IMG/VR virus record: IMGVR_UViG_3300036830_000071 | Span: 1-29,891 of that record | From: a virus | Length of the DNA stretch: 29,891 nucleotides | Direction: 5' to 3' (one strand) | Shown here: positions 6,513 to 27,702 of the stretch, piece by piece | Position numbering within the stretch: position 1 is the first letter of the stretch | Layout: each line of letters begins with the position of its first letter | Translations under genes and position numbers: made by a program | Notes under the pieces: model-generated | Told to the model about the DNA's origin: nothing | What the model saw: the letters and a program-made list of their open reading frames with translations, nothing else | Database searches by the model: none

Positions 6513-6712
6513 TGGACCTACCCGAAACTGAAATCCTGTCCCGCGCAGACTACGCCCGCTGCCGGGTCAACAAGCTTATTAAGGATCTGCGCACGTCGGA
6601 CATGTGGTCGCTGAAAGCCGAATACCTCCTGTCCGAAGCTGCACTGAAGATTGATGACGCGCTGGAAGAGCTGCGTCTCCAGGACGGACTGCAGAGGACA
6701 TACAGTGACTGA
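6512..6712 (+). CDS. Hypothetical helical protein, 66 aa
   Basis: ATG 6512 overlaps the stop of the endonuclease gene (TAATG). The 66-aa product is predicted mostly helical and charged (SRADYARCRVNKLIKDLR, then LSEAALKIDDALEELRLQ), with no membrane span. It precedes three coiled-coil genes and its stop overlaps the start of the first one. I recognise no family. It may interact with the coiled-coil neighbours, which is inferred only from order. Confidence 0.6.
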   Translation: MDLPETEILSRADYARCRVNKLIKDLRTSDMWSLKAEYLLSEAALKIDDALEELRLQDGLQRTYSD

Positions 6713-7016
6713 CAGCGAAGAGATCGATCGCCTCCGCGCCGAACTCGCCGAATGCCGCGAAGCACTACTCACGTCAGGCCACGAAACATTCGCTGCCGAC
6801 GCCGAGATCGACCGCCTCCGCGCCGAACTCGCCGAACGCGACCAACGGCTCAGCGCGTCCGCGTGGCGAGAGGCGCAGACACAAGCCGCATGGCTCGTCG
6901 AGATCAACAAGGTCGCCCGCGTCCGGGAAGTCCTCACCTACCCCGACGAGCAGGGATACGACTTCTCGTGCTTCTACTATGACGTCCGCGCCGCGATCGA
7001 AGGGAACCAGCCGTGA
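6705..7016 (+). CDS. Coiled-coil repeat protein A (RLRAELAE type)
   Basis: GTG 6705, after AGAGGA (6693-6698), gives 103 aa and overlaps the upstream gene by 8 bases. The first half carries two copies of IDRLRAELAE (about residues 7-16 and 37-46) in a coiled-coil register. The second half contains KVARVREVL and ends in VRAAIEGNQ. The same three elements recur in the next two genes, so the three are tandem paralogues. No catalytic motif is seen. Such coiled coils could oligomerise or act as scaffold beside the replication helicase; the function is unknown. Confidence 0.65.
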   Translation: MTDSEEIDRLRAELAECREALLTSGHETFAADAEIDRLRAELAERDQRLSASAWREAQTQAAWLVEINKVARVREVLTYPDEQGYDFSCFYYDVRAAIEGNQP

Positions 7017-7726
7017 AATACCCCAACTACCTCTTCGAATACATTGAGGACAACAAGCGACTCCGCGCCGAACTCGCCGCCGTCCGATCCGACATCCACA
7101 ACTGGGAGCACTGGCGCGACGAATGCGAGCGGGCCAAAGCCGAAGCGGACGACCTGAAGGACGAACTTGCCGAGCTGGCGGGACGCAACCTTAGCAATTC
7201 GCTCGATCGGAGCGCTGCCGAAGCCGCCATCGCCCGCGTCCGGGAGGTCTGCGCGAACCCGCCCGTCCCATCCCGAATGCTCATCCCACTCATCCACGCC
7301 GCGATCGAAGGGAGTGAGTGATGTTCGCTGAAGATGAGGTTCTGGAATTGCGCGCAGAGGTCGACCGCCTCCGCGCCGAACTCGCCGAAGCGCAACGCTC
7401 CGTTGGCGCGTACAACGCGCTGATCGAATCTGACGCGGGCGTGATCGACCGGCTCCGCGCCGAACTGGAACATCTGGGCGGATGGGCAACGAGCGCGAGC
7501 AACGCCGCCACGCGGCACAAACTGGATAACGACCGCCTCCGCGCCGAACTCGCCTATCAACTGTCGCTGCGAGAGTACGACCGCGCCGCGATCGCCCGCG
7601 TCCGGGAACTGTGCGATGAGGCAGAGGAGCGCGCCCTATGCGCGCAGTTCCGTGATCTCAACGACGATAAGTGTCGCCGCAACGCAATGGTGTGGGGCGT
7701 CCGCATCCGCGCCGCGCTCGAAGGAG
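6729..7726 (+). repeat. Dispersed DNA cassettes shared by three coiled-coil genes
   Basis: Cassette 1 (core CTCCGCGCCGAACT) occurs at 6729-6752, 6813-6836, 7058-7080, 7366-7389, 7450-7470 and 7534-7554; the copies at 6729, 6813 and 7366 are identical over 24 bp. Cassette 2 (core CGCCCGCGTCCGGGA) occurs at 6913-6929, 7230-7245 and 7592-7608. Cassette 3 (CGCCGCGATCGAAGGGA) occurs at 6989-7005 and 7298-7314, with a variant at 7710-7726. Each gene carries them in the same order, which points to gene duplication plus internal repeat expansion. Confidence 0.85.
7013..7321 (+). CDS. Coiled-coil repeat protein B
   Basis: GTG 7013 overlaps the upstream stop (GTGA); 102 aa. It contains one LRAELAAV element (from about residue 17), then an Ala/Glu/Asp-rich helix (ERAKAEADDLKDELAELAG), then AIARVREVC, and ends with IHAAIEGSE. 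The order is the same as in its neighbours: coiled coil, VREVC element, then an A-A-I-E-G tail. It appears to be the middle member of a three-gene tandem family. The function is not known. Confidence 0.65.
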   Translation: MKYPNYLFEYIEDNKRLRAELAAVRSDIHNWEHWRDECERAKAEADDLKDELAELAGRNLSNSLDRSAAEAAIARVREVCANPPVPSRMLIPLIHAAIEGSE

Positions 7727-7773
7727 GCACGAATGGACAAGAAGGAAACCGACTACACCCCGAAAACGATTGA
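7321..7773 (+). CDS. Coiled-coil repeat protein C
   Basis: I choose ATG 7321 (TGATG overlap with the upstream stop) with GAAGGGAG (7307-7314) as ribosome site; GTG 7318 in the same frame is the alternative. The 150-aa product has three LRAEL elements (about residues 14, 43 and 71), the AIARVRELC element (about 90-98) and IRAALEGG (about 129-136). It is longer than its two neighbours because of the extra repeats. After the shared tail it runs on for ~14 residues into the start of the helicase gene, overlapping it by 41 bases. The function is unknown. Confidence 0.65.
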   Translation: MFAEDEVLELRAEVDRLRAELAEAQRSVGAYNALIESDAGVIDRLRAELEHLGGWATSASNAATRHKLDNDRLRAELAYQLSLREYDRAAIARVRELCDEAEERALCAQFRDLNDDKCRRNAMVWGVRIRAALEGGTNGQEGNRLHPEND

Positions 7774-9049
7774 CCCCAGGAGCACCGAACTGTCCCAGGC
7801 AAGGCGCGTAGTCGACGCCAACCCACACCTCCGGTTCGCCCCGGGCATTGGGTGGCTGGCGTTCAACGGAGCCAAGTGGGTGCCCGACGCAGAGGCGGCC
7901 GCCAACGAGGCAGTACGCACTGCAGCGGACTCAGCCACAATCACGTTCCCAGGATACGGGGCTAAATTCGCGTCCCGCAGAGCACTCGTGGACGTCCGGG
8001 CCATCACCGCCGAACTGTCCCAAACCAAGCCAGCCGAGCTGGACACCCACAAGGACTGGATCCACACATCGGGGATCACGTGGGACCTCCGCACCGGCGT
8101 GTGCTGGCCCACAGAGGAAGACGAACTGAACACGAAGGCACTCGACTGGGAACCGGCCACAGGCTGCCCCGAATGGGTCGCCACCCTGGAACGCTGCTTC
8201 CCGGGCGAGCCCGAGATGGTTGCGTACCTGCAACGCCTCGTTGGGTATGGCATCACAGGCCAAACCCGCGAGCACGTGTTCATCCTGCTCCACGGCAACG
8301 GACGCAACGGAAAGTCCACGTTCATCAACGTACTGACCCACGTGTTCCGAGAGTACGTCCAGCACATCCCCGTAGCAGTACTCATGTCCGCCGACTCAAC
8401 CAACCCGGAAGGACCGTCGCCCATGCTGCTCAAGATGCGCGGCGCCCGAATGGTGTTCACGAGCGAGACAGCCCGGGGCGGAAGGCTGAACGAGCCCATG
8501 GTCAAACTGCTGACCGGCGGGGACGAGATCACAGCACGGGGCATGAAGGCAAGCCCAGTGACCTTCAAGCCCGAGGCACTCATTTGGATGGCAACCAACC
8601 ACAAGCCTGAAATCCAGGGCACCGATGAGGGCATCTGGAACCGGGTCAAGCTCATCGAGTGGCGAGAGTCGTTCGCCGGGCGCGAGGACTTCGGCCTGGA
8701 AGACAGGCTCAAGGCGGAGGCGCCCGGGATCATTGACTGGGCATTGGACGGCGCCCGGGAGTGGTACGCGGGCAAACTGCAAGAGCCAGAGCGGATGCGC
8801 CGGGACACGAAGCACTTCCGCGCGGAGTCCGATTTCTTCGGGTCGTTCGTGCCCGACTGGTTGGCGCTCGACGGCAGCGCGTGGATTCCACGCAAGGAGG
8901 TGCTAGCTGTGTATTCCCTGTATTGCGAGGACAACGGGCTGCTGCCCGTCCGCAACCCGTCAACTCTCTACAACGCGTTGAAGGAACGGGGCGCGGAAAC
9001 GGCCATCCGGAACGGCGTGCACGGCTTCCGAGTGCGGCGCGCAGGGTGA
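7733..9049 (+). CDS. D5-type primase/helicase (phage/plasmid primase, P4 family)
   Basis: ATG 7733 follows AAGGAGG (7721-7727); 438 aa. The central Walker A motif is HGNGRNGKST (His187-Thr196). It is followed by a D5_N/SF3-helicase pattern: MLLKMRGARMVFTSETARGG, LLTGGDEITARGM, ALIWMATNHKPEI and GIWNRVKLIEW. The Walker A Lys194 and the Asn in MATNHKP (sensor 1) are present. Such proteins unwind phage DNA and often also prime it, but I see no archaeo-eukaryotic primase or TOPRIM domain in the N-terminal 100 residues, so this may be helicase only. The gene stops at 9047-9049, inside the left arm of a large inverted repeat. A neighbouring frame continues the typical C-terminal tail. Confidence 0.88.
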   Translation: MDKKETDYTPKTIDPRSTELSQARRVVDANPHLRFAPGIGWLAFNGAKWVPDAEAAANEAVRTAADSATITFPGYGAKFASRRALVDVRAITAELSQTKPAELDTHKDWIHTSGITWDLRTGVCWPTEEDELNTKALDWEPATGCPEWVATLERCFPGEPEMVAYLQRLVGYGITGQTREHVFILLHGNGRNGKSTFINVLTHVFREYVQHIPVAVLMSADSTNPEGPSPMLLKMRGARMVFTSETARGGRLNEPMVKLLTGGDEITARGMKASPVTFKPEALIWMATNHKPEIQGTDEGIWNRVKLIEWRESFAGREDFGLEDRLKAEAPGIIDWALDGAREWYAGKLQEPERMRRDTKHFRAESDFFGSFVPDWLALDGSAWIPRKEVLAVYSLYCEDNGLLPVRNPSTLYNALKERGAETAIRNGVHGFRVRRAG

Positions 9050-9160
9050 AGGGTGACGCGGGTGATGCACTTTTCCCTATCAGTACCAATGAGCTTAGTA
9101 AGTTGGTTGTGCTGTCTGTTGTCATAGGGAAAGTGACATCACCCTCTTCACCCTCTTCAC
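9046..9160. repeat. Long imperfect inverted repeat between helicase and polymerase
   Basis: The left arm 9046-9080 and right arm 9124-9160 are complementary at about 32 positions, with three small gaps or bulges and two mismatches. The inner parts pair as TTTCCCTAT with ATAGGGAAA, next to GGGTGATG with CATCACCC, and the outer parts as GTGAAG with CTTCAC. The 43-nt loop (9081-9123) holds a further short pairing (ACCAA with TTGGT). The right arm also contains a 9-bp tandem repeat (TCACCCTCT twice, then TCACC, 9139-9161). The 124-bp gap otherwise holds no gene except the ribosome site AAGGAG (9163-9168) of polymerase. Confidence 0.85.
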
Positions 9161-9173
9161 CTAAGGAGCGCCG

Positions 9174-10823
9174 ATGTTGACCGACCTGGAAGGCCTCGTC
9201 CGCTCAGGAACAGCGGGCGCCCCGATCGCGCTGGACACCGAAACCGACGGGCTCAACGTGTACACGGGCGCGAAGCTACGCCTCGTATCCCTGTCCGACG
9301 GGACTAACACAGTCGTCCTAAACCCGCAGGATCACGGCCGCACCCTGACCGCGCTCCTGTCCAAGCCCTACAACTGGGTCATGCACAATTCGACTTTCGA
9401 CGCGCAGGTCGTCTACGCGAACCTGGGTATCGAGATGCATGCCACGGACACGCAGACGATGGCGCACCTGCTGGACTCGCGTGCCAAGGAACAGGGCGGG
9501 GTCGGGCTCAAGCTGGAGGACTTGGCCGCTAAGTACTTGGGTGAGGCCAAGCAGGGCGACGAGCTGAAAGGCGAGATGGCTCGTGGCGGGTGGACGTGGG
9601 AGACGATCCCTTTGGATAACCCCGTATACCTTCAGTACGCGGCGCAGGATGCAAGGTTGACGGCCCGGCTGTATGGCGCGCTGGATGCGTTCGGTCCGTC
9701 CCGGAAGTTGATGGAGTTCGAGGCTCAGATTCTCAGGGCGTGTGCGCGCATGGAAAGGCGCGGCATCCTCGTTGACAGGGAATACACAGAGAAGCTCGGG
9801 GCGAAGATGCAAACCGAGCAATACGACTGGGAGGACAAGGCACGTGAGCTGGGCATCGCGAATGTACGTAGCCCGGCGCAGGTGCGCAAAGCGCTCGGGT
9901 TGGAATCAGCTGACGAGGAAGCTCTCAGGCCACTGGTCCTCGCGGGCAACCCGCTGGCGGTAGCAGTCAAGGAGGCGAAACGCCGGGCGAAATGGCGGGC
10001 AGCGTATGTGGCGAAGTTCCTGAGCGAGTCGGATGTGGACGGCAGGTTGCACGCGTCTATACGGCCGCTACAGGCCCGAACAGGTCGCATGAGTATCTCA
10101 AGTCCACCATTGCAGCAGCTGCCCTCTAGCGACTCCATGATCCGTGCCTGCCTTATCGCGGACGAAGGTCAGGTCATATTCAGCGTCGACTTCCAGGCAG
10201 TTGAGATGCGGGTAGCCGCGGCACTGTCCGGGGACGCGAAGATGCTCACCGCTATCAGTTCGGGCGACATCCATGGCGCGACCGCGCAGACGGTGTACGG
10301 CGCCGGTTACACGAAGGAGCAGCGGAACAAGGCCAAGGTCATCGGCTTCGCAACCCTGTACGGCGCGGGCGTTACCCAGCTTGCGGCGCAGGCACAGTGC
10401 AGCCCGGAAGAGGCGCGGGAGATCAGGTCCGGGTTCTTCCGGGCGTACCCGGGGCTCAGGAAGCTGTCCAACAGGTTGAGTAGTGAGTCGGAGTCCCGCG
10501 GGTTCATCATTACGGCGTCGGGACGTCGACTGCTTGTAGAGAAAGATCGTGGCTACGCGGCTTTGAACTATGCAATCCAGAGCACCGCCCGAGACCTCTT
10601 CTGCCAGTCCATGCTCCAAGTCGAGAACGCGGGGCTGGGCGAGCACCTGCTCCTGCCGATCCACGATGAGCTGCTCGGGCAGGCGCGGGAGGAAGATGTG
10701 GAAGCTGTGGCGGGCAACGTGTCCGACGCAATGCAAACCGAGTTGAACGGTGTCGCAATCGAGACCGGGTTGAAGATCGGGCGCCGCTCCTGGGGCTCGC
10801 TATACGAGAAGGGAACCTCATGA
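9174..10823 (+). CDS. DNA polymerase I (family A) with 3'-5' exonuclease
   Basis: ATG 9174 follows AAGGAG (9163-9168); 549 aa, the short form usual in phages, without a 5'-nuclease domain. The proofreading exonuclease shows ALDTETDG (Asp21, Glu23), VMHNSTFDAQ and YAAQDARLTARLY (the Y-x-x-x-D motif). The polymerase motifs are A, SVDFQAVEMR (Asp339); B, RNKAKVIGFATLYG (Arg384-Gly397); and C, PIHDELL (His497-Asp498-Glu499). All catalytic acids are present, so it should be an active replicative polymerase working with the D5 helicase upstream. Its stop overlaps the next ATG (ATGA). The hairpin upstream could influence its translation. Confidence 0.93.
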   Translation: MLTDLEGLVRSGTAGAPIALDTETDGLNVYTGAKLRLVSLSDGTNTVVLNPQDHGRTLTALLSKPYNWVMHNSTFDAQVVYANLGIEMHATDTQTMAHLLDSRAKEQGGVGLKLEDLAAKYLGEAKQGDELKGEMARGGWTWETIPLDNPVYLQYAAQDARLTARLYGALDAFGPSRKLMEFEAQILRACARMERRGILVDREYTEKLGAKMQTEQYDWEDKARELGIANVRSPAQVRKALGLESADEEALRPLVLAGNPLAVAVKEAKRRAKWRAAYVAKFLSESDVDGRLHASIRPLQARTGRMSISSPPLQQLPSSDSMIRACLIADEGQVIFSVDFQAVEMRVAAALSGDAKMLTAISSGDIHGATAQTVYGAGYTKEQRNKAKVIGFATLYGAGVTQLAAQAQCSPEEAREIRSGFFRAYPGLRKLSNRLSSESESRGFIITASGRRLLVEKDRGYAALNYAIQSTARDLFCQSMLQVENAGLGEHLLLPIHDELLGQAREEDVEAVAGNVSDAMQTELNGVAIETGLKIGRRSWGSLYEKGTS

Positions 10824-14693: not shown

Positions 14694-14700
14694 CGCAGAA

Positions 14701-14736
14701 ATGGGCCCTACCCGGGAGCAGTCGGGTAGGGCCCAT
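14701..14736. terminator. Bidirectional intrinsic terminator between convergent arms
   Basis: ATGGGCCCTACCCG (14701-14714) and CGGGTAGGGCCCAT (14723-14736) form a perfect 14-bp stem with an 8-nt loop. ATTTGTTTC follows on the + strand, and on the - strand the stem is followed by TTCTGCG. It sits exactly between the last rightward gene (stop 14691-14693) and the last leftward gene (stop at 14745), so it should end transcription from both sides. Confidence 0.93.
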
Positions 14737-14744
14737 ATTTGTTT

Positions 14745-27270: not shown

Positions 27271-27702
27271 TCAAACTGGCATCGTCAGGTCAGCGCTCAC
27301 GCGGCGACGCGACTCACCCTTGTGCGCTTCGGCATAAAGCGCTAGTCCCCGGATGCGCTCCGGATTCTCTTTCAGCAGTCCCAATGCCATATTGCAGGGA
27401 CCGCAAAGCAATGCTCTTACTAGTCCAGTGTCATGCGAGTGGTCTACCACCAAAGGCTTGTCGTCGGCACCGCACACGGCACACCCGAAATTCTGGGATG
27501 ACTCCATTTGACGAAAGTCTTCCAGAGATATGCCGTAGAGTCGCCGCAGCTTCTCGTTCTTCTTGCGCTCGGGATTTCTTGTCGCCACCTCATGTGCCCG
27601 GCAACACGACTTGCACCAGGACATGTATCCGTCGCGCCCGCGAGAATGTGGATAGAACTGGTCGAACGGCAGTTCCTGCTGGCACTGGGTACAGGTCTTC
27701 AT
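27271..27702 (-). CDS. Endonuclease VII-like nuclease inserted in the head operon
   Basis: ATG 27702 overlaps the protease stop (ATGA); 143 aa. The N-terminal zinc knuckle uses Cys4/Cys7 and Cys30/Cys33. The core uses Cys74/Cys77 and Cys100/Cys103, with catalytic VVDHSHDTGL (Asp87, His88, His90) and RALLCGPCNMALGLL. Its layout equals the 145-aa protein at 11655-12092, so the two are likely paralogues or came from the same mobile family. It splits the usual protease-capsid gene pair, which suggests insertion of a homing endonuclease. Confidence 0.85.
   Translation of the reverse strand: MKTCTQCQQELPFDQFYPHSRGRDGYMSWCKSCCRAHEVATRNPERKKNEKLRRLYGISLEDFRQMESSQNFGCAVCGADDKPLVVDHSHDTGLVRALLCGPCNMALGLLKENPERIRGLALYAEAHKGESRRRVSADLTMPV

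Follow-up and report, generated by a model that had tools for sequence, protein, structure and literature searches.

The sequence analysed here, which we refer to as the window, covers an entire IMG/VR virus record (29,891 bp). Within it, a gene for an SF3/D5-type helicase is followed on the same strand by a gene for a family A DNA polymerase (Table 1), and a preliminary description of this DNA had placed a long inverted repeat with a 43-nt loop at the junction of the two. Both points hold: the helicase gene ends at 9049 and the polymerase gene starts at 9174, and ungapped arms of 31 nt (9050-9080 and 9124-9154), 81% complementary, lie 43 nt apart between them. With one bulge allowed, the repeat reaches about 9045-9163. 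It stands beyond chance both by fold stability, with z scores of -7.31 as RNA and -8.36 as DNA (0 of 200 shuffles as stable in either case), and by arm score, which is 17.8 where 40 shuffles of the complete 29.9-kb record gave at most 15.8. The top-scoring inverted repeat of the record by arm score is found elsewhere, in a tandem array at the left record end (1-90) made of about 3.5 copies of the 26-bp repeat GCATAGGGTGCCACCTTATGCATGAT, each internally palindromic. A ParB-like gene lies near this array (555-1301; phrog_1033, E 2.6e-5), and the 26-bp repeat could serve a phage-plasmid as a parS-like partition site or could be an end repeat. Further features of this 30-kb genome include three recombination endonuclease VII genes (PF02945; 5946-6512, 11577-12092 and, on the minus strand, 27271-27702), a coiled-coil motif, IDRLRAELAE, common to three adjacent small ORFs (6651-7773) that apparently arose by local duplication, and a 19-nt inverted repeat (89%, 8-nt loop) between converging gene blocks at 14696-14741 that is probably a two-way terminator.

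Table 1. Genes and sequence elements at the helicase-polymerase junction of the window.
Feature	Coordinates	Strand	Basis or remarks
SF3/D5-type helicase, putative initiator, 438 aa	7733..9049	+	D5_N + DUF5906 (Pfam/PHROG)
Left iteron array	9045..9069	+	GGTGAAG, GGTGACGCG, GGTGATGCA; from sequence
Left inner core CTTTTCCCTAT	9070..9080	+	only CTTTTCCCTA in record
AT-rich centre, putative DNA unwinding element	9081..9123	.	GC 44%
Right inner core ATAGGGAAAG	9124..9133	-	CTTTCCCTAT on minus strand; from sequence
Right iteron array, inverted	9134..9161	-	minus strand GGTGAAGAG, GGTGAAGAG, GGTGATGTC
Ribosome-binding site AAGGAG of polymerase gene, immediately after right array	9163..9168	+	from sequence
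Family A DNA polymerase with 3'-5' exonuclease domain	9174..10823	+	Pfam/PHROG

The arms of the inverted repeat are themselves composed of direct repeats, three GGTGA iterons on each side, mostly 9 bp apart and facing inward at an AT-rich centre. The preliminary description had recorded the GGTGA and TCACC words correctly and had missed their arrangement as phased arrays. GGTGA stands on the plus strand at 9045, 9052 and 9061 and TCACC at 9139, 9148 and 9157, and the helicase stop codon (TGA, 9047-9049) falls inside the first GGTGA (9045-9049). Inward of the iterons follow CTTTTCCCTAT on the left and ATAGGGAAAG on the right; the left arm reads GGTGAAG-GGTGACGCG-GGTGATGCA-CTTTTCCCTAT and the right arm, on the minus strand, GGTGAAGAG-GGTGAAGAG-GGTGATGTCA-CTTTCCCTAT. 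The word GGTGANNNNGGTGA occurs three times in the whole record, all at this site, where 0.13 occurrences would be expected. GC content is 41% over 9071-9133 vs. 62% in the record, and the 60-mer of lowest GC within the replication region (7-14.1 kb) starts at 9063. Moreover, cumulative GC skew along the record is lowest at 8431, some 0.6 kb upstream of the iterons and with plus-strand genes on both sides, which weakly supports an origin here.

The helicase has its nearest solved relatives (PDB) in the ASFV C962R primase, the SaPI5 primase-helicase 7OLA and pox D5 and, unlike its homologues, carries no PrimPol or zinc-finger primase domain. Its AF2 model (pLDDT 79.7) shows a strand-helix-helix-strand-strand succession at residues 377-434; AF2 of the C-terminal domain alone, run without an alignment, was unusable (pLDDT 42). 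Among 25 relatives, the C-terminal segment matched the Pox_D5 winged helix in 21, with RFX and Cdc6_C matches in others, and the window helicase itself scored 19.1 against Pox_D5 (E 0.0018), below the curated cut-off of 21.4. A family profile from which P4 had been left out also matched the P4 alpha origin-binding domain 1KA8 weakly (E 0.04), an earlier match with P4 in the profile having been discarded as circular. The model and the profile matches suggest a winged-helix-like domain, putatively DNA-binding, at the helicase C-terminus. Once overall similarity of the helicases is accounted for, iteron type does not follow the recognition helix (partial Mantel p 0.28).

Arrays of this kind recur behind homologous helicase genes. 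We collected 80 loci by helicase protein alone (75 after dereplication) and examined each from 50 bp upstream to 350 bp downstream of the helicase stop, counting as an array any 7-mer that recurs directly 7-12 bp away and as a reverse complement 20-220 bp away. Inverted iteron arrays were present in 27 of the 75 unselected loci, and in 35 of 91 once selected loci were added, as compared with 38 of 2172 control segments of the same loci (1.7%) and 0.9 of 91 in shuffles. Direct-repeat spacing peaked at 9 bp (27 loci vs. 8 expected) and was also raised at 7, 8, 10 and 11 bp, with no rise at 12 or 15 bp; since the neighbours of 9 are raised and the other multiples of three are not, the spacing does not reflect codon periodicity. 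The iteron words vary between lineages (TGTTACTTT, GATAGTTCA, AGGACGGTT, GGACCAATT and GTGAACGAT, among others). This detector found no array in the remaining 48 of the 75 homologous loci, including those of the phiC31 group and of the Arthrobacter and Microbacterium phages, which are the nearest named relatives. Iterons are likewise absent from the junctions of phiC31, Crewmate, AvGardian and GMA4, and the 3' region of BPP-1 showed only scattered 8-mers in a search for them. In place of iterons, a loopless palindrome, perfect or near-perfect, is found 5-20 bp after the phiC31-type helicase stop in eight loci (L002, L019, L052, L053, L054, L057, L061 and L071), many of these palindromes being centred on CTCAC|GTGAG. 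In phiC31, the repressor binds to conserved inverted repeats.

The same association emerged from the opposite direction. Two scans of IMG/VR DNA made without gene information, for two GTGA words 9 bp apart with TTTTCCCT or CTTTTCC after them, repeatedly landed behind D5 or VapE helicase genes. In the first (17 loci), seven matches lie immediately 3' of D5/DUF5906 genes (L021, L032, L034, L036, L037, L038 and L041) and one (L039) lies 3' of a PrimPol-VapE gene; L030 is a near copy of L036, and several loci are near-identical, which leaves about four independent lineages. The loci with an inverted partner in the second scan (L038, L135, L137, L138, L144 and L146, out of 17) are all D5 or VapE helicase loci, the array of L138 being exceptional in its placement, roughly 1 kb upstream of the VapE gene. 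There, at 7200-7900, GGTGACGAA iterons with CTTTTCC are spread out across about 400 bp. When the inverted CTTTTCCCTA core alone was sought in a third scan, six loci were returned, two of them (L021 and L023) 3' of DUF5906 genes; the pattern GGTGANGCNCTTTTCCCTA gave eight chance matches in IMG/VR, inside unrelated genes, and was set aside. A TTTTCC core after the inner iteron is also seen in L021, L038, L032, L137, L144, L135, L146 and L039. Behind SF3 helicases as a whole TTTTCC shows no enrichment, so that the core is shared by a subset only. We tentatively suggest, at somewhat worse than even odds and from sequence comparison, that an origin module of two to four GTGA-N5 iterons, ending in (C/A)TTTTCC(CTAT) where the melted region begins, may be common to phages with different SF3-like initiators (D5/DUF5906 or VapE; with DnaG-zinc-finger, PrimPol or no primase domains). 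If true, the TTTTCC core would serve all of them as a signal for melting or primer start, whatever the iteron word. The occurrence of CTTTTCC in both D5- and VapE-type loci is the less expected part of the finding, and would offer a lead on how initiators act after binding.

The preliminary description had proposed that the hairpin is what selection keeps, and had called for a search for compensatory changes. The collections searched contained no close relatives for a covariation analysis; helicase and polymerase had best matches of about 40% identity, and similarity at the nucleotide level was confined to a 53-bp segment within the ribonucleotide reductase gene. In 12 related loci of the GTGA type, for which a convergent GTGA layout was the entry condition, the five bases after GTGA match between left and right in 73% of cases within a locus vs. 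30% between loci (permutation p 5e-5). Matching in these loci was 76% for mirrored left/right pairs, 72% for non-mirrored pairs and 70% within the same arm. A selected stem would favour mirrored pairs, whereas for a repeated protein-binding site all pairs should match equally well, and the latter is what these loci show; with no mirror-specific covariation, the conserved unit is the iteron and not the hairpin, which is a by-product of the inversion of the arrays. Related loci often have unequal numbers of iterons on the two sides, their CTTTTCC core is often one-sided, and their centres extend to 186 bp.

The out-of-frame peptide can be understood in similar terms. An open frame one base back from the helicase does read VKGDAGDALFP and then VTSPSSPSSP up to 9180, as originally described (ORF 8761-9180), and it had been taken for a tail of the GDAGDA/SPSSP kind said to be frequent in D5-type helicases of actinobacterial phages and prophages and to have lost its frame here. 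That proposal is not supported: among the 80 related helicases, none has such a tail (a single SPDSP comes nearest), and the window helicase stops where the C-terminal domain of the family normally ends, with no sign in its sequence of a lost peptide tail. A tblastn search with the tail peptide returned no match, though the low-complexity filter may have masked the query. Iterons of 9 bp read in any open frame yield three-residue repeats, GDAGDA from GGTGATGCN and SPSSP from the other arm, and most arrays of related loci lie behind or across the helicase stop codon. The peptide is thus a by-product of 9-bp repeats read as codons, and iterons would explain GDAGDA- and SPSSP-like repeat peptides in the open frames of such phages generally.

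We consider the element to be a putative iteron-type origin of DNA replication of the phage, with a probability of about 0.85. An origin had been among the options first listed for the repeat, and it is well supported by the iteron layout, the position, the homologous loci and the annotated phage origins. Like other iteron origins served by SF3 initiators, the site lies 3' of the initiator gene and has two inverted repeat sets, an AT-rich centre and an SF3 helicase. The SF3 helicase encoded upstream would bind the GGTGA iterons on either side of the AT-rich centre, probably through its C-terminal winged-helix domain, and the facing arrays would load two helicase hexamers head-to-head. The AT-rich centre with its CTTTTCCCTAT borders would then melt, and a primer made there would serve the family A polymerase, whose gene comes next. 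These steps of iteron binding, melting, bidirectional loading and priming are what we infer from the features read directly at this and related loci, namely the array, its geometry, the AT-rich centre, the position, the helicase family, the recurrence behind homologues and the likeness to annotated origins. A puzzle of a hairpin and a lost peptide is thereby replaced by a testable replication origin, and with it comes a rule for finding others: an iteron of about 9 bp in two inverted sets, no more than about 200 bp behind an SF3 helicase gene.

One of the other explanations is also an origin. The 100-nt stem-loop directly behind the SF3 initiator gene orf904 is required in pRN1, and a similar one has been proposed behind the BIP-1 primase gene (PMC4234260); like these, the window has an inverted repeat of about 100 nt directly behind an SF3 initiator gene, and its arms are very stable as folded DNA. 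An SF3 initiator might accordingly recognise an extruded hairpin here and not a sequence-specific array. We regard such a pRN1-type origin as very unlikely, since a hairpin needs no direct repeats inside its arms, mirrored pairs are not better matched in the relatives, and unequal array sizes, long centres and one-sided cores suit a stem poorly. In pRN1 there are no iterons and pairing is kept over sequence, whereas the repeated word is the matched unit in the window.

The stability of the fold as RNA, and the fact that the right arm stops beside the ribosome-binding site of the polymerase gene, would also suit a hairpin in the helicase-polymerase message that controls translation, decay or termination. 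Such an RNA element is highly improbable given the 9-bp direct repeats, the AT-rich centre, the lack of mirror-specific covariation and the many relatives with the same kind of array between other gene pairs; a structured RNA or terminator was also set aside after no Rfam family and no terminator with a T-run matched at the inverted repeat. Repeated sites in an intergenic spot could also be operators, serving a repressor or autoregulation by the helicase, and loopless palindromes do occupy the same position in phiC31-group loci. We give this the least credence: no promoter-like site was found here when the sigma-70 consensus alone was scored, and two inverted sets with an AT-rich centre are the layout of the annotated origins of phages A2 and Sfi21.

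The putative iteron origin of the window can be placed among several known systems. The crr of P4 likewise lies behind its alpha gene, has type I iterons (GGTGAACA) in 9-bp steps and is served by an SF3 helicase with a C-terminal winged helix. P4 crr/ori proper was nonetheless rejected as a match: its iterons point outward from the AT-rich centre, whereas those of the window point inward, and only the GGTGA word is held in common, the other bases differing. P4 also has a second, distant site (ori), and the window helicase is without a primase domain. In PICIs, the origin lies 3' of rep and has an AT-rich region with a set of iterons on either side (PMC6092414), and the SaPI/PICI layout, just 3' of the initiator gene, resembles that of the window, with SaPI5 7OLA among the closest solved helicase relatives; unlike a PICI, the window has the genome size of a phage and encodes a polymerase of its own. 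Two further phage origins have been annotated as such. In Lactobacillus phage A2, a rep_origin (AJ251789) immediately follows a homologous primase gene and contains ACGGGAGGATGA iterons in either orientation, and Streptococcus phage Sfi21 has a 302-bp origin (NC_000872) directly 3' of its primase gene, with inverted 8-bp TAGTTACT iterons and an AT-rich run between them. These differ from the window in iteron words and lengths, in regions that are longer and noncoding, and in lacking the CTTTTCCCTAT core. They share with it a homologous primase-helicase gene just upstream, two inverted sets of short iterons and an AT-rich centre, and an iteron-type origin behind an SF3 helicase is accordingly of a kind already known from annotated phages.
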